Of a stretch of 64,000 nucleotides of DNA, positions 3,985 through 15,141 are shown piece by piece. Within the stretch, counting starts at the first letter, position 1. Every line of letters begins with the position of its first letter. Source of the stretch: Rhizobiaceae bacterium (GTDB lineage Bacteria; Pseudomonadota; Alphaproteobacteria; Rhizobiales; Rhizobiaceae); contig JACVCH010000001.1 of assembly GCA_016742175.1 (NCBI GenBank), forward strand, positions 124,001-188,000, in the 5' to 3' direction. The notes under the pieces are model-generated. The model did no database searches and was not told where the DNA came from. It saw only the letters and a list, made by a program, of their open reading frames with translations. A program made the translations under genes and the position numbers.

Positions 3985-4891
3985 GGCTTCCAAGGTTTCC
4001 TGCTTCGGCCGATCCACGAGCGGTTGTTCGACCGGCTGAAGGCGTCCGACAAGCTCTTCGCCGACGAGACGACGGCCCCGGTGCTCGATCCCGGCCGCGG
4101 CCGCACCAAGACCGGCCAGCTGTTCGCCTATGCGCGAGACGATCGCCCCTGGGGCGGGATCGATCCGCCCGGCGTCGCCTACCTCTATGCGCCTGACCGA
4201 AAGGCCGAACAGCCCCTGCGGCACCTTCAGGGCTTCGTTGGAATCCTTCAAGTCGACGGCTATGCCGGATACAAGGTGCTGGCCGAGCGCAACGCCGTGA
4301 GCCTGGCCTTCTGCTGGTCGCACGTGCGTCGCCGCTTCTACGAACTGGCGCAGTCCGGACCCGCGCCGATCGCCACGGAGGCGCTCGCCCGCATCGCCGA
4401 ACTCTACAAGATCGAGAGCGAGATCCGGGGCCGCTCGCCCGAAGAGCGGCGCACCGCCCGTCAGGAGAGAAGCCGACCTATCATCGATGCCTTCGAGCCG
4501 TGGCTACGCGGGAAGCTTGCGCTGGTCAGCCAGAAGAGCAAGCTGGCCGAAGCGATCCGCTACCCGCTCTCGCGCTGGGCTGGGCTCGGCCGCTTCCTCG
4601 ACGACGGCCGCGTCGAGATCGACTCCAACGTCGTCGAACGCAGTATCCGCCCCATTGCCCTCAATCGAAAGAATGCGCTCTTCGCCGGCTCCGACGGCGG
4701 CGGCGAACACTGGGCGACGATCGCCTCGCTCATAGAAACCGCGAAGCTCAACGGCGTTGATCCGTTCGCCTACCTCGCCGACGTCATCACCCGCATCGTC
4801 GCCGGTCACCCGCAGAACCAGATCGACGACCTGCTGCCATGGGCCTATGCCCCAGCGCCACTCAAGGCCGTGGCCTGAAAACAGCGGTTAC
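3985..4891 (+). pseudogene. IS66-family transposase remnant (C-terminal part of TnpC) with right end
   Basis: An open frame to 4878 encodes the catalytic half of an IS66 DDE transposase: LFADETTAPVLDPGRGRTKT, DGYAGYKVL, FCWSHVRRRFYE, the DSNVVERSIRPIALNRKNAL block and FAGSDGGGEHWA. The N-terminal leucine-zipper and zinc-finger part and the companion tnpA/tnpB genes are missing. Homology to full-length transposases begins at about GFLLRPIHERLF near 3994, with no start codon there. The sequence ACAGCGGTTAC ending at 4891 matches the GTAA-initiated terminal repeat of IS66 elements, so the right end is probably intact. Beyond it lies a recombinase fragment. The element is certainly not autonomous. 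Confidence 0.88.
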
Positions 4892-4982
4892 TCTGAGTGA
4901 ACGGACGCTTGGTGCCCACCTTCTTTCCGGCGTTCCAAGCCGCACGCTCGCGGATAGCATCATCGAATTGAGAATGGCCCAT
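4892..4982 (-). pseudogene. 5' fragment of a tyrosine recombinase/integrase, cut by IS66
   Basis: Reading leftwards from the ATG at 4982 (ribosome site GAGGAGA), the frame gives MGHSQFDDAIRERAAWNAGK and then KVGTKRPFTQ before reaching the IS66 end at 4891. This is the recognisable start of the short alphaproteobacterial integrase-like proteins, which continue with a WAIRFFL-type block. The rest is absent from the window. I infer that IS66 inserted about 30 codons into this gene and that a later deletion removed the remainder together with the left half of IS66. Confidence 0.6.
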
Positions 4983-5026
4983 TTGAGTTCTCCTCGGCCA
5001 TGAGTGGCCGAAAGAGAAACGTCGCA

Positions 5027-5053
5027 GGATACTGCCGCTCAGGGGCAGTATCC
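5027..5053. repeat. Perfect inverted repeat, 10-bp arms
   Basis: GGATACTGCC and GGCAGTATCC flank a 7-base loop about 45 bases upstream of the recombinase fragment. A shorter hairpin (GGCCA-TGAG-TGGCC, 4996-5009) lies between it and the start codon. Neither has a T-run. The position suggests an operator or a recombinase-related site rather than a terminator, but this is inference. The rest of 4983-5232 holds no gene I can recognise. Confidence 0.4.
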
Positions 5054-5232
5054 GGACGGTCCGCTTTTGGGGATTATTTGCCGTTCGCTGCCGTTTTGGG
5101 TCCGCCTTGTCAGGCAAAGTTTGCCTGGTCAGCACACGACCCCATCTCGGTCGTTCAGCATCCGCTTTCACTAGGACCGCTTTTAGCCCAAGCGGACTTG
5201 CCATTCCAGAATATGACCGCCTAGTGCCGATA

Positions 5233-7749
5233 CTAGAAAGGCGGGCCCGACGTCGTTGATCCCGCCTTGCAACGGCTATTCCCTACAGCACGCGCTCTGA
5301 TTAACCTAGTCAGACGCGCGCGCTGATGAGACAGACTCCGTTCCGCGAACCGCTCTGCCCAGTATCCCTGCAGGCCCAAGTAGCGCGCTAACGTCAGATC
5401 GGAGAGTTCGTGAAGGTCGGACTCGTCGTAAACCGAATGCACGCGTTCACCGTCCTGCTCCTGCCACGCCTGGAATATCCCGTATCCGGCAAGTAGTTCT
5501 GTCCCTGTCAGCACCACCAGCGGATTGCAGGCATGGCCATGAAATACGTCGCGTCGTCCCCACAGCGCAAGTTCACGTAAAACCGCCAGTTCCTGCGGCA
5601 TGTACTCGGATATGTGGCGGAGCGATGAGACAACCATCACTGAGCCAGGAAACCGTGCGGCGACCTGCCTCAGCCCGTCGACCGTTTTCGCGTCAAACGC
5701 GCCGCGACCAAAGCTCTTTGCCTCGCCGAACACCAGCAGTGGCTCTTCGCGTTCGTCGCGGAGGATACCCTCGCGACGATGCCATCCGATGAAGTCGACC
5801 TCTCTGTTGAGCTGCGGAAGACGAAGGCCCGTGGACCAGGTCATCTCGGCGTGGTTGGGATGAGTCAAAGTACGTAGGGTTAGGGCCACAGCATATCCGC
5901 CGCCAGCGTAGTCAGGCGCAGCGAACGGGCCGATGACGCGGTAGAACCAGTTCACCCGGTTTAGGGCCTCCGGCGTCTGGGCGAAGTCGAACTGGTTCAG
6001 GCAGCGCGTGCAGGTCGGGCGATAGGTCAGCGAGTCGAGGTCGTACCAGTTCTGGTACTGGCAGACCGGGCATTGCACCCTCAGACCAGCCCGAAAGACG
6101 TTGGCCTTAAGGAATTGTTCCAGTCCATTCCAGAGACCGAACGCACCCTTAGCGCGTGCGTCGAAGTGTTCTTTGATGACACCGACGTGTTTCGCGCGGT
6201 CTGGAACTGTCGAGATCACGCGCTTGCCGTCGCGGCTAACCTCGGCATGGTTCTCGGCCATCCCGCCCAGCAGCTCGATGGTTCTGCGATCAGCGAATAT
6301 TGCCGCTTGCGCAATGCCGCCCACGGCAGCAATGACCTGAGCGGCGACTTGGCCTTCAGAAGATGGTTGGGCTTCGACGCCTTGGGACTTCAGCCAACCA
6401 ATTACCGCATCGCGCCCGCTTTCCGGACGCACCAGCGAGTAATCGATGCGGTGTTCCTTGGCGAGCACCCAGCCCTCACGGCCTATCCGCAACGTATCGC
6501 CCGTAACCAGGCGGGGATACACGGGCGACCAGAGATTGGATGGGTACACCGTCGCCGCCTCGTCGCCGTATACGGAAGAGCCAGTGGCGATGACATTGAC
6601 CCAGCGCGCGCGCCGGTAGGTCTTCGTGGCATTCACAAAGGCCGGCACGGGCGCGGGCAGCTTGACGTACCCATCTGGGCTCACCGTCTCGTCGAATGAC
6701 GCCGTTGCGGCGGACACAATTATCTTATCCTCGCGCGGTCCGTGGTTCCGCCGAGAATGCGCTGAAAGCGTCGGCATATGAGCGCCAACAACAGACCAAT
6801 CCGGCAACCCGGAGAAATGCTCCGTCCAAAGCGCCTTGCGCCGCTCCTCGGAAATCGACGTTCCAAAGACCAGTGTCGTGTGAAACTTTATACCCGACGG
6901 GTTGCCGGGAATTGGCCGGAAGGTCTCGAGGATGCGCTCGCGGACAAAGTCGCGATGCTCGGCCAGCCATTCGACATTAATCGGCGTGACATGCCGCTCG
7001 ACCAGCCGGAAATTCCAGTAGTCGATGGCATCTCCCGCGTTCTTCGGATCGAAGATGAAGAACGTGTCGTCGCGGCTGCCGCGACCGAGCGACTCTTCCA
7101 GTCCATGTCGCGTGATCCACAGGGGACCGGCGTTGCCTTCGCAAACGAATTTGAGCGCGGCATCCGCGTTGGCAAGTAAAGGCTCAGCCGAGAACACTTC
7201 CTTGTAGGCGTACCGAGTTTCCTCTAGCGCCTCGTCTAGTGGGTACCGTCCGCCGACAAGGTCGAAGAATGCGTCTCCTTCGCTCTCATCGACAATCGCG
7301 AAGGGCTGCTTGTGCCGTCGCTCGTGCTTGAACTCGCGGTCGTACAACTCCTGCATGACCTCAAGAATGTCGATGCCTGCCGCAAAATTCACTCGACCGC
7401 GTTCGTTGACCTCGAAGAATTTCTCCAATGACACGACGCGTGGTAGACCCATGTGGACCTGCTTATCTCTCCAACCTAGCTGTTCCGCCATGCCAGGAAC
7501 AGCTTCGACCAGCGCGTCGGGCTCGAAAAAATCGATGTATCCCCGTGCGATATCGAGACCTTTGGACCGACTGTACGGCGCACTCCAGTGCTCGCCACCA
7601 TTCTCGAAGAACGGGATGATGGGACAGTATCTGCCGCCCCAGACGCACGCTGCGAGCCTCGCCACGCGCGAAACGAGCGAAAGGTCGTCCGGTGGCACCA
7701 GAAATCCCAGACGCATAGGGCGAAGACTGACAGATCCAGTAAGGCGCAT
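5233..7749 (-). CDS. Large island protein with zinc ribbon and PD-(D/E)XK-like nuclease motif; function unknown
   Basis: This is an 838-residue protein I cannot assign to a named family. The N-terminal third contains ACVWGGRYCPIIPFFENGG (about 34-52). Two CxxC pairs at C560/C563 and C580/C583, 16 residues apart, form a likely zinc ribbon. Downstream, EVDFIGWH (D652) followed by LLVFGEAKSFG (E676, K678) has the D-x(n)-E-x-K layout of PD-(D/E)XK nucleases, in a predicted strand context (VFGEAKS, then SVMVVSS). It has no signal peptide or membrane segment. It is the main cargo of the recombinase-trio island, where antiphage genes are common, so a nuclease effector role is a reasonable but untested inference. 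The ATG at 7749 lacks a clear ribosome site; ATG 7716 is an alternative. Confidence 0.7.
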   Translation of the reverse strand: MRLTGSVSLRPMRLGFLVPPDDLSLVSRVARLAACVWGGRYCPIIPFFENGGEHWSAPYSRSKGLDIARGYIDFFEPDALVEAVPGMAEQLGWRDKQVHMGLPRVVSLEKFFEVNERGRVNFAAGIDILEVMQELYDREFKHERRHKQPFAIVDESEGDAFFDLVGGRYPLDEALEETRYAYKEVFSAEPLLANADAALKFVCEGNAGPLWITRHGLEESLGRGSRDDTFFIFDPKNAGDAIDYWNFRLVERHVTPINVEWLAEHRDFVRERILETFRPIPGNPSGIKFHTTLVFGTSISEERRKALWTEHFSGLPDWSVVGAHMPTLSAHSRRNHGPREDKIIVSAATASFDETVSPDGYVKLPAPVPAFVNATKTYRRARWVNVIATGSSVYGDEAATVYPSNLWSPVYPRLVTGDTLRIGREGWVLAKEHRIDYSLVRPESGRDAVIGWLKSQGVEAQPSSEGQVAAQVIAAVGGIAQAAIFADRRTIELLGGMAENHAEVSRDGKRVISTVPDRAKHVGVIKEHFDARAKGAFGLWNGLEQFLKANVFRAGLRVQCPVCQYQNWYDLDSLTYRPTCTRCLNQFDFAQTPEALNRVNWFYRVIGPFAAPDYAGGGYAVALTLRTLTHPNHAEMTWSTGLRLPQLNREVDFIGWHRREGILRDEREEPLLVFGEAKSFGRGAFDAKTVDGLRQVAARFPGSVMVVSSLRHISEYMPQELAVLRELALWGRRDVFHGHACNPLVVLTGTELLAGYGIFQAWQEQDGERVHSVYDESDLHELSDLTLARYLGLQGYWAERFAERSLSHQRARLTRLIRARAVGNSRCKAGSTTSGPPF

Positions 7750-8314
7750 TTTTCAACAATCAAAGAGACAGAGTGACGCCGCTTTCCGACAATAGCTCTT
7801 TCCCTAACACGAATACTGGTCAGACGCGTACGCACTGCCGGACCGGGCTTTGCCCGATCCTCGGTGCATTTCGGCGAGGCGTCGCCACCACCTAGCGCGA
7901 AGATGGCAAAGGAACGGACGCGACCGGAGAGACGATTGCGCGGATGCGTGCCAATGCCGACATGAAGGATCGCGAGCGGCAGGCGCACCCTTGGCCGGAT
8001 GTCCTCTGTTTGCGCAAAGCTGGCGTAAGCGCGTCGAAAGCTGCCTGTCCGCAACCCACCCCATTGCCGAAGTCCGAAGCCAGCCAAGTAATATACCGGC
8101 CGAAAATCGATTTACGGTGCAACGTGTGGCCGTCTACGGACTGCCCACATCTGGACGAAGACTGGTAAAAGAATGATGGTTGTACGACCTTTGGCGGACG
8201 GCCCACCGTCGGTGCAAAGTGGATGTACAGCGGTTCCAAATCAGTCGCTAGGACGTCACCGCCTTATGGCCGAAAGCGATATGGAGCAGGCAGCTGGATG
8301 GACGGTGACCGGCC
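7750..8314. other. 565-base stretch without a supportable gene
   Basis: Several short open frames occur on both strands, but none resembles a known protein, has a convincing ribosome site or is continued by a neighbour. I see no tRNA, repeat or terminator. It probably holds the promoter of the 838-residue gene near its left end. Degraded coding sequence is possible. Confidence 0.4.
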
Positions 8315-8575
8315 TTAGAACTCGTCGTCTTCCTCATCATCGAGATGGTGCCGAGGGGCCGCGCGCAACAGTGCTATTGCTTTTCTAGCTTGGTCGATCG
8401 CTATTTCGGCTTCTCGCAACCTCCCGGACAAACCGGTCTCATCTACCAGCACGCCTCGCCCGTTTGTACGGGGCGTCGCGGAGAGGGTGCTAACGGCCGA
8501 GTACCAGCTATTCAAAAATTTGTCCGTTGCTTGTTGCTGCAGCATCAGTGCTTCCGTATTGGCATCCATTTCCAT
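8315..8575 (-). CDS. Small hypothetical protein with acidic C-terminus
   Basis: From the ATG at 8575 (preceded by GAGAGAA) the product is 86 residues. It has a helical middle (SGLSGRLREAEIAIDQARKA) and an acidic tail, DDEEDDEF. It has no membrane segment or known domain. It lies between the recombinase trio and the 838-residue protein on the same strand, so it may belong to the island cargo. The longer frame from 8689 has no ribosome site. No function is assigned. Confidence 0.45.
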   Translation of the reverse strand: MEMDANTEALMLQQQATDKFLNSWYSAVSTLSATPRTNGRGVLVDETGLSGRLREAEIAIDQARKAIALLRAAPRHHLDDEEDDEF

Positions 8576-8776
8576 TTCTCTCGTGATGTTAAAGCGTAGA
8601 CAGTTGAGCGGCCCGTGATGGAAGCGCTGCCGATATGCGATTAACAAGCCTGCGAAGATGCGAAATTGAGTCCGAATAGCCGAGTCCAATACTCATTGCT
8701 GCGATGAGCAGTTGATTTTCTGCTGGCAAAAAGCTCACCAGGAAGCAAGGCTGGGTATCAACAAATATATTGTCCG

Positions 8777-9520
8777 CTATCCTATGCCGGAAATTTGTCG
8801 AAGTGCAGCCAACTCCTCCGGGTAAATTAAATCCATTCCCGCGCCGGCTTGCTGGATGATGCGGCCATTCCGGTTCTCCAAGTCGAAGAAATCTAGGAAG
8901 CGTTCGTCATCCAGTCTGGCACACAAGCTCCTCAGCAACGAGCGATCAACGATTCCTTCCTGACGCTGATCATCTGAAAACAGGGCGGTTGAAGAAATTG
9001 CGGGAAGGCTCTGTATGGCCTGTTTCAGAATCGCAAGTTCTTCTGCAGCCATTCGCCACTCTTCAAGCCTCAGTCTCAGGAACGATCGTGAATTCTCGTC
9101 TCGAATAGAATTGAGCGCTCGCTCCACCAGCGCCGCACGATCTGAGCGTGTCTTGACTCGTCCGACCGCCAGTTCTGCTTCGCGCAGTTTGACGTAGCGC
9201 TGAAATTCAGGGTTCTTTCGAATGGTGACCGCTGTGGGGCCTGTCCACGCAGATCCAACGCCCTCCGATCTCTGGCGCAAGCGTACATAGCCTTCGATCA
9301 TGCCTGAATTCAGTTTTCGAAGTGGTGGCATCCAGGACGGCTGGTCAGTGCCCATGGTCTGGCCCAGTCGGTATGCTTCACCGGAAATCAGAGCCGTACA
9401 GGCTGCTTCCAACCGTTCCAGGGTGCCGATCTGGCGCACGCCGCCACCGCGACTTGCATCATCATGGAGCTTTTTGAAAAGTCGGCCGGCATCTGTCGGA
9501 GATCTGGAGGCCTCAGGCAT
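8777..9520 (-). CDS. GmtX-like third protein of a recombinase trio
   Basis: About 247 residues, soluble and mainly helical, with a SAWTGPTAVTIRKNPEFQRY segment and a long helical stretch (LRLRLEEWRMAAEELAILKQ). It has no catalytic motif. It is the last gene of a tight operon behind two tyrosine-recombinase-like proteins. Its position, size and the WxGPT...IR pattern resemble GmtX of Gamma-Mobile-Trio elements, or functionally TnpC of Tn554. The ATG at 9520 gives an 8-base overlap (ATGCCTGA) with the upstream stop, the same overlap as at the other trio junction, with AGG seven bases upstream. ATG 9544 is the alternative. The family link comes from memory and was not searched. Confidence 0.55.
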   Translation of the reverse strand: MPEASRSPTDAGRLFKKLHDDASRGGGVRQIGTLERLEAACTALISGEAYRLGQTMGTDQPSWMPPLRKLNSGMIEGYVRLRQRSEGVGSAWTGPTAVTIRKNPEFQRYVKLREAELAVGRVKTRSDRAALVERALNSIRDENSRSFLRLRLEEWRMAAEELAILKQAIQSLPAISSTALFSDDQRQEGIVDRSLLRSLCARLDDERFLDFFDLENRNGRIIQQAGAGMDLIYPEELAALRQISGIG

Positions 9521-12500
9521 GCGCCAGCCTAGAGAGCGACTCATGCACAACCTGATCTCCCTCGAGCATCATCAGCCCTCGGACAAGCTTCTCAAGCTCT
9601 TCCGGTGCCCACTTCTGCTCCACGATCGCGCTTCCCACCCGAATGTAGGAATCGTTTTCGCTTTCCGACAGTCTTGAGGCGACGGGATAACCCTGCGAAT
9701 TGGCAAACTCGCGTATCCAGCTCTTCCAACGGAGTTCAACGTCTGACGGCAAATCCATGATCGAACTCGGCATGATCACCGTGTCAACCATCATGGCGTG
9801 CATCAGCTCGAATTCATGAACAACCTCTAGACAGGAAATTGCAGTATCTCGATCAAAATCTGCATTCATCGGCAGGACCAAATTGGAGGCAGACGAGTGC
9901 TGCTCTTCCGCACGCTTTATCAAGCCCTCGCAAATGCGAATGACCTTTAGTTCAGACTCCCACTCCTCCTTTAAATTGTATTGCAACAGCAGATCTCTAT
10001 CTCTGATGCGCCGTAGTTCGACTGACCGCTCGCCGGTTAAGCGCTCCCTTTCCTCGATCTTCTTTCCAAGATCGGCCATTTTGTTCAAGGTTGAGTGGTA
10101 TTCGTACATAAGCATGTTTGCTCGTGCACGAAGCCCTTCAATGAAGTGCGGACCCGTTATCCGGTACCGACACTTCGAGCATGCATTTGGTCTCCAGACC
10201 GGAGCGTGCTTAGCTCCCCCGATGCGCTTACCACCTTCCATGCAGTTCATAGCGGGACACAACCCGTGCATGAAAAGTATGTGATGACCGGAGCGGTAAT
10301 CTGGAGACATGACCAATTCGACGCCTGTACGCTGAATGTGGTCATCGGGAAAGACGGCGCTTTCGGCTAGTTTCTCGAGTACCCGACCCTTCCCGATCGC
10401 GATGTCCTCCCTTTCGAGCCGTTCGTAACCTGCGATTAGTGTGTCGCGCACCCTCCTTAGTCGGAGGACGCGATAATATCGCGACATTTGGGGCGAGGCG
10501 TGCCCGACTAGGGCAACGATTACGTCTTCATCAGCACCGGCCTCGTAGAGCAGCGTGATGAGCGAAGCCCGCATCGAGTGAAGGTCAAAAAAGGCTTTGT
10601 CGTCGACGAACAAGGGGTAATCATAACCCAGCTTCTCGTTGACGATCGGCTGGCAGTGTTTCAAGAGCGCCTTGAAATAGGTTAACAGGCGGCTCTCGGA
10701 TATTGGCATCTGCAGAGGATCATCGGGCCAGCGGAACAGCGGTGCGACCAGTTCGAAGAGAGTTTCATCTACATAGTCGTCGGTCGTGTCAGATTGGCGG
10801 GCAAGCACGAGACGTTTCAAAGGGTTGTACTTCATCTGCAGATCGCGCAGTTGCACAAGTGACGCCGCGAGCCGCTCTGGTATGAACGGGACTGGGATGA
10901 CACCTCCCGTTTTGTTAGTGTTGATGAAAATACCGAGAACCTTGTCCTCATCGTGCCCAATATCGTAAAGTCTTAAGCACCCCTCGCTTCGGTCTTTGAT
11001 CGCCGTCTCAAGGAGATTGGGCAGACGATCAAGGTTTTTGATGTCTATCAGGTACTCATCTCCTTCGCCGCTATCGAGGAAACGGGTGTTCTTGTTCCTG
11101 GTGCCGAAATGAAAGATGACATCGAGCGCGATCGGAACGGCGGGCCAGAATAGCCTTGTCATGCGCCCGGTATCGGGATCCCTTAATTTGATCCAGTGGC
11201 TATTCCGATCCATATTTCGCGCGAATGCGAAGTTGTCTTTCCGGTTCTCTTCGATAAGAATCCTCCAAGCCTCTAGGCTCAGAGCAGGTCGGTGTGTGTG
11301 GGTTGACTTGGGCTTCGGTGGCACGATCTGGTCGATTGCCGGATCGAAAGGATTCGCAAGATCTGCTGCAAAGCCGTCGCGACGGGCGGCGATGGACCAC
11401 AGGTCTCGCATTTCCTTGATGGCTTCGCGACAGATGTTGCGTGCATGCTCTGAAAAATGCTGGGCTAGGAATTGTACGAAAGTCTCGCCGTCACCCTCGA
11501 GAAAGTCGTTCACGTGTGCCCTGCGGCTTATATCTCTGAAGCTCTTCGGCGCGGCATCGTACGATAAAGACTCAACGTATATTAGCCACGGATTTGTGTT
11601 GTAGACCGTCGATTGCAGCGCTTTTTTTCGAACCAAAGGCAGCAACTCTCGAAGTTGTTCCGCCCAATCCCTGACGTGATCCGCCACGGCAGTCACCGGT
11701 CGTCCAAGACACCGTTCAGCCAACTTCGTGTTGCGCGGTTTAGGATTGAAGACCCAGTCGTATGCTTTCGCACCCGAATTTGCTAAACGCTTCTGCATCG
11801 TGAAGAAGGGAGCAAACTTGTCGTCGGCGATGTCCAGGCCAAAGTGGTCCGTGGCGACACGGTAAAGAGCGTTGAACGATGACGAGTGCATTTGTGAGCC
11901 CGAGTGTTGCGTCCATTCCTTCAAGCGTATCAGGGGCTCGGGATCGAAATCGTCTTGCTGCCAGATGTTGCTCGAGATCTGCGAGATCGCTAAGCAATTC
12001 AGCACCATCGTCGCACTTGTGTGGCGGGATAGCTCTTGAAGACCAATAACCTGGTCAACTAGGGCCCGATGACGAGAGGGCATAAGGGTGCGCAATACTA
12101 CCGGCATCAGGCGCGGTGGTAGAAGGTTCCGGATAGGACCCAGAAACTTTGCAGGCAACGCCCAGATGCCCTGCGATGCCAAGTACATCGCAAACCAAGA
12201 GGGTCCATATTCTCGTCCGGTGCCGCGACCTGATTTTCCGTCTTTTCCGGTCGCTCTCTGCTCGAAAAGACAATCGGCAAGCGCCCGCTCAAGCTGAGCA
12301 AGATAAGCTCCGACGTCAGTAGCACTCCTGACGTCCCTCTTTAAATTCGCCCAACCGAACGTTCCAGTCTGCGCGAAGCGCAGGTAATCGTCGATCGACT
12401 TGCTGCCGCTGACGAGCTTCTCGACAATTTCTACCTGTTCAGATAGGGGCATTTGATAAATCTGGGCCGCCGACGACAATTTGGCTGGCCCGCGTCGGCC

Positions 12501-12857
12501 TACTGCCGATAATTCAGCACGCCGCCCGGCGAGGATTTTCGAAACGGCAGGTCGATTCACGTTTACAAAATTATTGAGCCCACCATCCGCAATCAGACCG
12601 TACGCAATCCCTTCGCGCTCACTATCTTGCTCTGACCGCAGTTGCTGACCGCCATATTTGCCTTTGTACTCCTCAAACGGCATCGAAAATAGCGTGAGAA
12701 CCTCAGAAGTAAGAGTCTTCATGAACCGGTTGAGCAAGCTGTTGAGTTCTTTGGGGCTAGGAACCCGGATCACGACAACTGTTTCGGACGCGTTGACGTA
12801 GGTGCCGGTGCCGCTGTCGGACCATCGCAGGTTCCGTTCCGACTGATACTCAACCAT
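9513..12857 (-). CDS. GmtZ/TnpB-like large tyrosine recombinase
   Basis: Numbering from a TTG two codons upstream, the protein has 1116 residues; the ATG at 12857 (GAGG upstream) gives 1114. A long N-terminal region of unknown fold precedes a tyrosine-recombinase catalytic domain. That domain shows HFGTRNKNTRFLD (arginine near 589), LHSMRASLITLLYEAGADED (H762, R765), GHAS (H788) and a terminal tyrosine in MSRYYRVLR (796/797). A cysteine cluster follows (C869, C874, C895, C898), suggesting a zinc finger, then a helical tail. Two large recombinases plus a small partner is the arrangement of Tn554 and Gamma-Mobile-Trio elements, where they catalyse site-specific insertion. Confidence 0.75.
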   Translation of the reverse strand: MVEYQSERNLRWSDSGTGTYVNASETVVVIRVPSPKELNSLLNRFMKTLTSEVLTLFSMPFEEYKGKYGGQQLRSEQDSEREGIAYGLIADGGLNNFVNVNRPAVSKILAGRRAELSAVGRRGPAKLSSAAQIYQMPLSEQVEIVEKLVSGSKSIDDYLRFAQTGTFGWANLKRDVRSATDVGAYLAQLERALADCLFEQRATGKDGKSGRGTGREYGPSWFAMYLASQGIWALPAKFLGPIRNLLPPRLMPVVLRTLMPSRHRALVDQVIGLQELSRHTSATMVLNCLAISQISSNIWQQDDFDPEPLIRLKEWTQHSGSQMHSSSFNALYRVATDHFGLDIADDKFAPFFTMQKRLANSGAKAYDWVFNPKPRNTKLAERCLGRPVTAVADHVRDWAEQLRELLPLVRKKALQSTVYNTNPWLIYVESLSYDAAPKSFRDISRRAHVNDFLEGDGETFVQFLAQHFSEHARNICREAIKEMRDLWSIAARRDGFAADLANPFDPAIDQIVPPKPKSTHTHRPALSLEAWRILIEENRKDNFAFARNMDRNSHWIKLRDPDTGRMTRLFWPAVPIALDVIFHFGTRNKNTRFLDSGEGDEYLIDIKNLDRLPNLLETAIKDRSEGCLRLYDIGHDEDKVLGIFINTNKTGGVIPVPFIPERLAASLVQLRDLQMKYNPLKRLVLARQSDTTDDYVDETLFELVAPLFRWPDDPLQMPISESRLLTYFKALLKHCQPIVNEKLGYDYPLFVDDKAFFDLHSMRASLITLLYEAGADEDVIVALVGHASPQMSRYYRVLRLRRVRDTLIAGYERLEREDIAIGKGRVLEKLAESAVFPDDHIQRTGVELVMSPDYRSGHHILFMHGLCPAMNCMEGGKRIGGAKHAPVWRPNACSKCRYRITGPHFIEGLRARANMLMYEYHSTLNKMADLGKKIEERERLTGERSVELRRIRDRDLLLQYNLKEEWESELKVIRICEGLIKRAEEQHSSASNLVLPMNADFDRDTAISCLEVVHEFELMHAMMVDTVIMPSSIMDLPSDVELRWKSWIREFANSQGYPVASRLSESENDSYIRVGSAIVEQKWAPEELEKLVRGLMMLEGDQVVHESLSRLAHA

Positions 12858-14259
12858 TTGCAAGCCTCGCCATTGCTGATTTCAGCGTCGCGTTGCACTC
12901 GGATGCCCGGCGACCGTAGTCGTCCAAGCTGTCTTCGCGAACGTAACGCATCATGATTTGTTGATCTGATCGGGACATCTTCAGCTTTTTGTCGGCGTAC
13001 CACTTGTAGAAGTGCCGAAGTCCATGGATTGAAGCGCCGGGCAGCGACGGCGATATGCCGATCCGCTTAATTGCTCGGGCAAAAGCCTTTTCGCAGGCAC
13101 CACTCGACAGTGGTTCACCATCAACCGAATTGACGTACAAGTATGGATGTCGCTCGGTAACGCCGAATGAACTTCGCTTGAGCAATATGGTTTGGACTAG
13201 AGCCGCGAACTCCATTGCACGGGAACTGTTGATCCAATACACCCAAGAAAGCACAAGTGGAGAGAAGTACAAAAATCCCTTGTGACCGGCGCGTTGCTTT
13301 TTCTTTTGATGCAAGCGTGGCGATAGTTTGTATGCTCGATAGAGGTAATCGATTCTTTTTTCTGAGAAATCAGCGGTGTCGCCGTTGTAGGTGCACAAAG
13401 TCGGATGTGCCAAAATAACAAACGGCAGTCCGCCCATTTCGACATCGCCAAATGTCGAGCTCATACGGCCGGGAAGTACGTCTTGGACAAAGAGTGTCAG
13501 TCCCTCACTCAGGCGAACTCCGCCGAATGCAAGGAGTATCCATAGCGCACGGAACGTCAGGTTTTTCTCATTTTCGATGATCGCGTCGATCTGCCCGGCA
13601 TTTAGGGAAGTCGTGCCGCGGAGCCGACCTCCTTGTTTGCGCTTAGCAGTCAGATGCGTGCCGAAGTGCCTGCCGGCTCGTGAGTTTAGGACGTTCTCGT
13701 CATTGAGACGATCGACGATATCCAAATGTGCCAACAGCCGATCGGGACGATAGCCATACGGGCTTGGTGGACCCGCGAGCGAAGCGTCAACGATGCCATC
13801 GAAAAGCAGCCGGTCATTCGGATGATGGACCTTTTGATACCGCGCAAATTTCTCAATTGCGTGCAGTTCCATTTTGGCGACTTCCGGGCTGGCGCGTTCC
13901 CAGGGGCAGATGTCGGCAAGGTCTTCTTCGCTGTGCGGCAACGTGCGAAAAGCAGCGAATCTTGACAGGACACGCATTGCCGACGCCCGATCCGCTATAG
14001 CTCCCGGCGTAGCGTTGACTTGAAATTCATGAAGCCTTCCCAAGCTTCGGGCGTCTCGGGCCAAGGTCGTTAGTGAAAAGCCTCGATGCGCGCCGTTAAC
14101 GAGATACTTGTTCAGTACCTGCGGAAAGTACGGCTGGCCGTCGATCGTCAAGAAGATCAGCGGGACATTCACGATCAGCGGTCTTTTCTGGCTCTTTGCG
14201 CCGTCAATGGCCAAAGGCACACTTACGATCGAGAATGCTCGCTCCCAAGTCCTTACCAT
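12850..14259 (-). CDS. GmtY/TnpA-like tyrosine recombinase, first gene of the trio
   Basis: A 469-residue protein from the ATG at 14259 (AGAGG upstream). An N-terminal core-binding-like half is followed by a catalytic half. The latter has AFGGVRLSEGLTLF (R249), IHGLRHFYKWYADKKL (H412, R415) and a tyrosine candidate at 439 or 448 in YVREDSLDDYGR. It overlaps the next recombinase gene by 8 bases (ATGGTTGA). Promoter sequence is expected in the AT-rich 14260-14480 stretch, but I cannot fix a -35/-10 pair with confidence. The probable role is DNA recombination at the ends of the island. Confidence 0.75.
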   Translation of the reverse strand: MVRTWERAFSIVSVPLAIDGAKSQKRPLIVNVPLIFLTIDGQPYFPQVLNKYLVNGAHRGFSLTTLARDARSLGRLHEFQVNATPGAIADRASAMRVLSRFAAFRTLPHSEEDLADICPWERASPEVAKMELHAIEKFARYQKVHHPNDRLLFDGIVDASLAGPPSPYGYRPDRLLAHLDIVDRLNDENVLNSRAGRHFGTHLTAKRKQGGRLRGTTSLNAGQIDAIIENEKNLTFRALWILLAFGGVRLSEGLTLFVQDVLPGRMSSTFGDVEMGGLPFVILAHPTLCTYNGDTADFSEKRIDYLYRAYKLSPRLHQKKKQRAGHKGFLYFSPLVLSWVYWINSSRAMEFAALVQTILLKRSSFGVTERHPYLYVNSVDGEPLSSGACEKAFARAIKRIGISPSLPGASIHGLRHFYKWYADKKLKMSRSDQQIMMRYVREDSLDDYGRRASECNATLKSAMARLANG

Positions 14260-15021
14260 GGCGACCTCTATCAAACAGATAGGCGTCTTTAATTCTTATT
14301 ATTTCAAATAGCAATAGCAAATAAATTCAATACTCAGTTGAGTGAGACGAATACTATTAGAAAAGCAGTATAACAGCCTCACAACATGAGATGCGCGCAG
14401 GCTGATTGTCTATGAGAAAATTAGCTGCGAGCACGAATGAAGGCCTATTCCGCTAGAGCCTGCCTCGTCATATCTAGCGACTTTAATGGCGTCGCCTCCT
14501 CGCCGCACGAAGCCAGTAGATTTGGCCCTTGAGCCAGAATTCAGCTGTAACCGCCCCCGTACTCAGTTCACTTCGCCGACAAAAGCTGGGCGGAGGTTTT
14601 GTCCGCCTCAAATGCGGTCGTCGGAAGCGCTGAAACCTGAGAAGCAAGCTTGGGGCGCAACAGTGCTGCGGTGACACTGTCGAAAAGGGCGGCGTCATGT
14701 TCCCGTTCTGGGCGCTAACCTCTGTCATCGTCTATACCGTCATGCACGGAACTCATCTGCTGCGGCGAGCTTGGTTCCCGCCAGCCCTTTTTCGGTCATC
14801 CTCCGAAGGCAGGCATCAAGCGCGACAGCTTTTCTCACCTCTCCAGAACGTTTCTCTCGGCGCAGGATCGTTCTCGATCAATTCACGGCTGAGAAAGCCC
14901 CACCGCAAGCGGTGGGGTCCGTTCGCCAGCTGGACCCGGGGGCGGGCCGGCGCTTGCTATTTGATTAGCTCCCCGTCCCGCCCCCTGTTCATTTGTGGCT
15001 ACACCTTTCGAGCAGGGGGGA
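14260..15021. other. Right end of the island: AT-rich leader followed by unidentified sequence
   Basis: 14260-14480 is clearly AT-richer than its surroundings and probably carries the trio promoter and the element end. 14483-15021 has short open frames on both strands without ribosome sites or recognisable products. A GC-rich hairpin (CCCCACCGC/GCGGTGGGG, 14898-14917) without a T-run lies inside it. The sequence ends abruptly at the truncated gapR frame near 15022, which I take as the insertion or deletion junction. Confidence 0.5.
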
Positions 15022-15141
15022 TCAGGCTACGACACCAAGGCGATCCGCACCATCATCCGCCTGCGCAAGAAGGACCCGAACGAGCGCCAGGAAGAAGAGG
15101 CGCTGGTCGAGCTCTACATGAACGCGCTCGGCATGGCCTGA
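15022..15141 (+). pseudogene. 5'-truncated gapR (DUF2312) fragment
   Basis: In frame to the TGA at 15139 the sequence encodes [20 protein letters not shown], then [18 protein letters not shown]. This is the conserved C-terminal half of GapR/DUF2312, the alphaproteobacterial nucleoid-associated protein that binds overtwisted DNA. The N-terminal coiled-coil half is missing, and the upstream sequence is unrelated. A strong terminator follows at 15171. The fragment is probably what remains after insertion of, or deletion beside, the island. An intact paralogue elsewhere is likely but not visible here. Confidence 0.75.

Follow-up and report, generated by a model that had tools for sequence, protein, structure and literature searches.

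A rare one-gene cassette of a recombinase-trio island encodes a putative zinc-ribbon nuclease with links to anti-phage defence

Results

A recombinase-trio island carrying a one-gene cassette

The window that we analysed is a stretch of 64,000 nucleotides from a Rhizobiaceae bacterium, and positions given without a locus name refer to it. Its reverse strand holds, at 5233..7749 (stop included, ATG start in the ORF listing), the coding sequence of a protein of 838 residues (P0001). This gene occupies a cassette, or unit, on the same strand (5137..8055), bounded by GGGGTGG (8056-8062) on one side and GGGGTCG (5137-5143) on the other. Between this cassette and three further reverse-strand genes, which form the trio, lies a reverse-strand ORF of 124 aa (8315..8689), also present in Aliihoeflea sp. 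2WW and without a family in four libraries. The trio genes encode a GmtY-like tyrosine recombinase of 474 aa (12850..14274; NF040693, E 1e-30, 107.4 bits against a curated cut-off of 340), a GmtZ-like integrase of 1116 aa (9513..12863; NF047926, E 1.9e-43, 148.6 bits against a cut-off of 600; PF13009), and a third protein of 257 aa as listed, which may start later (8777..9550). No NCBIfam or Pfam model matched the third gene, which was recognized by alignment with its counterparts in four other trio islands (28-37% identity). The sequence-only reading had placed the 838-aa protein in a recombinase-trio island and was right in kind, given the two recombinase matches, both below the curated cut-offs, and the aligned third gene. 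Third-position GC is 0.56-0.69 in the five island genes (5233-14274), as against 0.86-0.89 in three flanking genes.

Gamma-Mobile-Trio (GMT) islands reportedly line up a recombinase, an integrase and a third protein, followed by cargo. The island in the window has this arrangement, with GmtY-like and GmtZ-like recombinases, a third protein and cargo behind, and its counterpart in 2WW carries anti-phage cargo in the same place. It differs in that both recombinases score far below the cut-offs and in that the third gene has no model; it is an alphaproteobacterial relative and not a GMT island by those models. Passages citing the original work attribute GMT islands to Mahata et al. 2024 (Nat Microbiol 9:3268). 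GmtZ relatives were found in 16 of the 394 genomes of the family sample, those of the window and of 2WW counted, and in 1 of 249 in the order-wide sample, namely the genome of the window. Besides the window and 2WW, six genomes of the family sample reach E 1e-140 or better (G1128, G1251, G1001, G1284, G1035 and G1208, whose match is split in two).

Upstream of the trio, at about 15025-15141, lies the short 3′ end of a coding sequence, which we take to be 2312/GapR-like and which is also found in L048 and L070; in L072 a longer frame of the same kind stands beside the trio. The end of this gene is therefore a possible insertion site of the trio.

Junctions of the cassette

Comparison with 2WW shows how the cassette is delimited. 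Between the window and 2WW, the nuclease unit is 99.8% identical in DNA and the trio 94%, whereas the chromosome next to the window's island shows 85% identity in 2WW (G1002); the difference between the first and the last of these values suggests a recent transfer of the nuclease unit. In 2WW about 3.9 kb of additional DNA, with SIR2 and HerA genes (PADLOC, E 1.3e-181 and E 1e-160) and a small ORF, separates the trio from the nuclease gene, and the order is trio, core, SIR2-HerA, site, nuclease, site, chromosome (L002, shared sites at 5740-5747, 9628-9694 and 12606-12673). The trio part ends in CTTCGGCAATGGGGTGG, immediately before the SIR2-HerA unit. Both the SIR2-HerA and the nuclease units end in near-identical stretches of about 67 bases that start with GGGGTCGACTCC and finish with GGGGTGG. 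In the window, the end of the trio joins the nuclease unit directly at GGGGTGG and SIR2-HerA is absent without a scar, while at its far end the nuclease unit has GGGGTCG, followed by other sequence. Another gene pair, encoding 504 and 176 aa and present in G1001 and 2WW, likewise ends at CTTCGGCAAAGGGGTGG.

The genes of the island thus look like cassettes bounded by a recombination core, as judged by comparing the sequences of very few islands. The junction site was not found in the plasmids searched, and the 17-kb stretches behind six other trios (ORFs above 110 aa, inspected by eye) held no recognizable similar cargo except the 504- and 176-aa pair of G1001.

The 504-aa protein contains a GEPGSGKT motif and forms with its 176-aa partner another such unit (L048 15021-17044, L070 12468-14491); the L048 pair had no match in PADLOC. 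We also tested whether the cassette end folds into an attC-like single-strand hairpin; three folds gave z of -0.34, 0.45 and -0.15, which does not support one.

A rare family outside the libraries searched

The 838-aa protein had no match in Pfam, PADLOC or PHROGs profile searches (for PADLOC 2.0.0, no family at E ≤ 1), and NCBIfam gave a single chance match (E 0.16). Across the family, PADLOC produced one weak match (E 0.031, in one of eight members), and the matches in Pfam and PHROGs were weak, each confined to a single member. The earlier statement that the protein belongs to no named family therefore holds for these four libraries, and no published description was found in library scans and word-based literature searches, which covered few subscription journals and included no sequence search.

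The label of orphan, on the other hand, has to be dropped. A sequence search returned near-full-length relatives at 29% and 36% identity, and in all seven full-length relatives were found besides the protein of the window, plus partial ones. The full-length set comprises the proteins of 2WW (L002, two residues differ), of genome G183 (L007, 36%), of a Photobacterium damselae plasmid (L003, 29%), of a Mu-like prophage in IMG/VR (28%), of G854 (L026), of a Bradyrhizobium barranii plasmid (20% in the alignment) and of a P2-like phage in IMG/VR (L075). Partial relatives are found in G136, at two contig ends in G092, and as fragments on a Sphingomonas plasmid (L020).

The family is rare in the samples searched. 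In the phylum sample of 398 genomes a single-protein search found it in 4 (the window's counted), and it was seen in 1 of 385 genomes at class level, which is the window's own, in 2 of 297 at order level (again with the window's) and in 2 of 78 in a further sample. The taxonomic family of G136 gave matches in 4 of 74 genomes, two of them being discarded zinc-ribbon matches, and none of 48 genomes of another class had a member. Tblastn of the phage record collection with P0001 or the Photobacterium relative gave no match, nor did the gene have a DNA match in E. coli genomes.

Conserved blocks and a C4 zinc ribbon

The motifs that had been read from the single sequence are at the stated positions: WGGRYCPIIP at residues 37-46 (7612..7641, reverse strand), the cysteines C560, C563, C580 and C583, and D652, E676 and K678. 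In the first block, W37, G38, G39 and P43 are identical in the eight rows that cover it. A second N-terminal block, D240...W245-N246-x-R248 (7006..7032, reverse strand), is likewise identical in 8/8 rows, and the invariant N-terminal positions of the nine-row alignment include RPxR...WGGxxxP...D and D...WNxR. No known domain, for the recognition of modified DNA as in type IV restriction enzymes or otherwise, was recognized by Pfam in the N-terminal region of P0001 or of the other family members.

The C4 motif CPVC-x16-CTRC (residues 560-583; 6001..6072, reverse strand) has the two CxxC knuckles of a zinc ribbon, with a spacing conserved exactly in all nine rows that cover the C-terminus, the window's included; W568 and L571, within it, are invariant in the nine-row alignment. 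Not one of 20,000 shuffles of the 838-aa protein yielded CxxC-x16-CxxC, so the motif is not due to chance. Pfam matched the zinc-ribbon model PF08271 in one of eight family members (E 0.0016). Two matches to the ribbon only, in G021 and G212 (E about 0.001), were dropped, the proteins being short (293 and 306 aa) and otherwise different.

A predicted PD-(D/E)XK nuclease domain

Downstream of the ribbon, the motif E-x-D-x(n)-G-E-[AC]-K, that is, a conserved acidic residue followed by (D/E)xK as in the PD-(D/E)XK superfamily, is kept in 9/9 rows covering the region, the window included; among these, the 2WW row (L002) is nearly identical to the window's, and L003 closely resembles L018. The count leaves aside the P0002 row, which stops with its contig short of the region (its misaligned end reads GYQK); the fragments from Sphingomonas (L020) and L005, an N-terminal piece, are likewise left out of the C-terminal counts. 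The motif consists of E650-x-D652 (5794-5802) and E676-A677-K678 (5716..5724, reverse strand), and all six full-length rows of the alignment share E650, D652, G675, E676 and K678. E650 is thus as well conserved as D652, which corrects the motif first proposed, where E650 was left out. In one sequence such a motif is worthless, since 17,253 of 20,000 shuffles of the 838-aa protein contain D-x10-30-[ED]xK; it becomes meaningful through its conservation in 9/9 rows, in a family whose overall identity falls to about 20%.

Structure prediction, which the sequence-only reading had asked for, was carried out with AlphaFold on two sequences each for the whole protein and for residues 550-765, and reached pLDDT of 31 and 45. 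Both low-confidence models agree on the succession of elements: a helix, two strands (the second with D652), a third strand that ends at E676, then a helix and a strand. This order, assigned by DSSP over residues 617-708 (5626..5901, reverse strand), fits a PD-(D/E)XK core in the predicted models. Foldseek with the weak model placed MspJI at the top (E 0.017) and Mus81-Eme1, YaeQ and Kpn2I at ranks 3, 6 and 8, all four of which we take to be PD-(D/E)XK folds; none is significant, nothing was found at E ≤ 0.001, and the same list contains the Hermes transposase (ranks 2 and 4), a carboxylase and many AAA ATPases. Three sequence searches of solved structures gave best E of 1.2, 1 and 0.17. With pLDDT of only 31 and 45, the case for a nuclease fold rests on conservation and topology. 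The prediction delivered the expected order of elements with no significant fold match, and of the proposed nuclease with its own zinc module both motifs stand, conserved in every row that covers them. We conclude that the protein is very likely a nuclease, with a PD-(D/E)XK fold as the candidate.

The gene moves alone

We compared the Photobacterium plasmid, represented by L003 and L010 and complete except for some 230 bases, with 20.9 kb of the Mu-like prophage. Their only DNA similarity is L003 14832-17474, which corresponds to the gene with 148 bp before it and 86 bp behind it. The two alleles differ with dN 0.049 and dS 0.337 (dN/dS about 0.15) and are hence under purifying selection. In G854 (L026) the gene stands alone between two chromosomal genes read as prolyl oligopeptidase and acyl-CoA dehydrogenase, and in G092 a DUF2130 gene precedes it, the two overlapping at their ends. 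That plasmid and prophage have only this gene in common, that the G854 copy is solitary and that the G092 copy lies behind a DUF2130 gene argues for a one-gene module, and the sharing of the gene alone by plasmid and prophage supports the single-gene part of the earlier claim.

Defence and phage neighbourhoods

A survey of the neighbourhoods of homologues, proposed together with the defence hypothesis, found defence and phage contexts. In 2WW the nuclease unit sits behind the SIR2-HerA unit of a trio island like that of the window. Within 9 kb of the Bradyrhizobium plasmid copy we found IetA (E 1.5e-149), IetS (E 0) and PDC-S64 (E 3.9e-43), all by PADLOC, an AbiJ-type protein (AbiJ_NTD3 with Abi_C) and, adjoining the copy, an annotated YhaV/PrlF pair. 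SIR2-HerA, IetAS and AbiJ systems are thus near the family in two genomes; they are unrelated to it in sequence and are neighbours only. Two copies are carried by phages: one in the IMG/VR prophage, read as Mu-like from its genes, and one in the P2-like phage, where it adjoins the portal (gpQ) gene, so annotated in its best relatives, and where beyond the homologue come an 831-aa protein, an ORF of 330 aa and a gene of 597 aa, the last of which we read as encoding the replication protein gpA. For P2-like phages of E. coli, PMC9122126 describes the gpA-gpQ region as an anti-phage hotspot. Housekeeping contexts are therefore not the only ones in which homologues occur, though the L026 copy is solitary between chromosomal genes read as housekeeping. 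Judged from these individual loci, genomic context favours defence.

Other neighbours were also inspected. The 831-aa protein of the P2-like phage (L075 8-2503) was read as SIR2 with a P-loop and TPR-like repeats; it had no PADLOC match, and its PDB matches were TPR-like only. In the G183 neighbourhood (L007 8306-15995), a helicase (ResIII/Helicase_C) and a DUF3800 protein lie near recombinase-like ORFs, and this region could be an undescribed defence island. Neither protein matched PADLOC, and the one neighbour tested from the Photobacterium plasmid had no match there either.

Discussion

A candidate one-gene defence system

A rare family that travels alone between phages, plasmids and islands, sometimes beside anti-virus genes, is probably an undescribed one-gene phage defence. 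We consider it probable that the 838-aa protein, carried as a unit of one gene, acts by itself as an anti-phage nuclease with an unrecognized N-terminal sensor; that it is active as a nuclease, senses phage and protects the host is inferred. The sensor or regulatory region would extend from residue 1 to about residue 470; residues 555-590, approximately, would be the C4 zinc ribbon, probably contacting nucleic acid; and residues 617-750, again approximately, would be the PD-(D/E)XK nuclease, with D652, E676 and K678 as putative metal ligands and catalytic lysine. Upon infection, the N-terminal part may recognize a phage feature, be it a protein or a nucleic acid that is modified or otherwise unusual; this recognition would release the nuclease, which would then cut phage DNA, or nucleic acid in general as abortive infection. 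Solitary mobility and the defence and phage contexts lend partial support to the sequence-only reading, which had singled the protein out as a defence candidate. The distribution suggests a one-gene function, which makes the gene directly testable in a laboratory host.

This proposal has to be weighed against others. The domain could be non-catalytic, a nucleic-acid-binding or structural remnant, or have a different fold, as the low confidence of the models and the lack of a fold match at E 0.001 would allow; we hold this to be quite unlikely, considering that the five motif residues are identical in six full-length rows and that the motif persists in nine of nine rows at identities down to about 20%. 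It is also unlikely, if slightly less so, that the protein serves mobile elements in DNA processing, maintenance or transfer and not in defence. Many carriers are indeed mobile (the trio island, a plasmid with conjugation genes, and the Mu-like and P2-like phages), but they have no life cycle in common, plasmid and Mu-like prophage have the gene alone in common, the copy in G854 is solitary in the chromosome, and the neighbours in 2WW and Bradyrhizobium are defence genes.

A growth-halting toxin, stabilizing its carrier selfishly in the manner of toxin-antitoxin addiction, would account for the annotated toxin-antitoxin genes that adjoin the Bradyrhizobium copy and for those read from ORFs near the G136 and G092 copies. 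Yet these neighbouring pairs look complete by themselves and vary from case to case, no constant partner is seen among the loci, and the unit common to plasmid and Mu-like prophage is one gene; we hold this explanation to be the least probable of those considered here.

Relation to known systems

Nuclease-based single-gene defence is already known; the family and its N-terminal region are absent from the libraries searched. Like PD-(D/E)XK restriction and defence nucleases, the 838-aa protein has a conserved acidic residue and an ExK, which the two low-confidence models place on the expected strands. Unlike them, it has no methyltransferase, modified-base domain or ATPase motor recognized by NCBIfam or Pfam, and its N-terminal region is unrelated to theirs. 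GAPS1, a single-gene defence from GMT islands, offers a parallel, the 838-aa protein being the single cargo gene of a trio-type island; GAPS1 is said to be triggered by a phage capsid protein. We saw no sequence link between the two in an indirect comparison, tblastn of the phage collection with P0001 and its Photobacterium relative; this collection may contain the Klebsiella prophage ST437-OXA245phi4.1, in which a GAPS1-like protein is reported. If our proposal is true, the known means of defence gain a zinc-ribbon nuclease that works as a single gene with an unrecognized phage sensor, from a family outside the libraries searched that phages themselves carry.

A wider reading, possible although we lean against it, is that the trio island acts as an integron-like platform, gathering one-system defence cassettes with GGGGTGG-core ends, and that the nuclease, as one such cassette, represents a new defence family whose sensor domain is also new and which P2-like and Mu-like phages likewise turn against their rivals. 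Should the cassette junctions hold up, they would show concretely how recombinase-trio islands can assemble defence genes.

On the side of the cassette away from the trio, positions 4024-5204 hold an IS66 transposase fragment adjoining a short ORF, part of which resembles, by eye, the start of the integrase beside the G183 relative.
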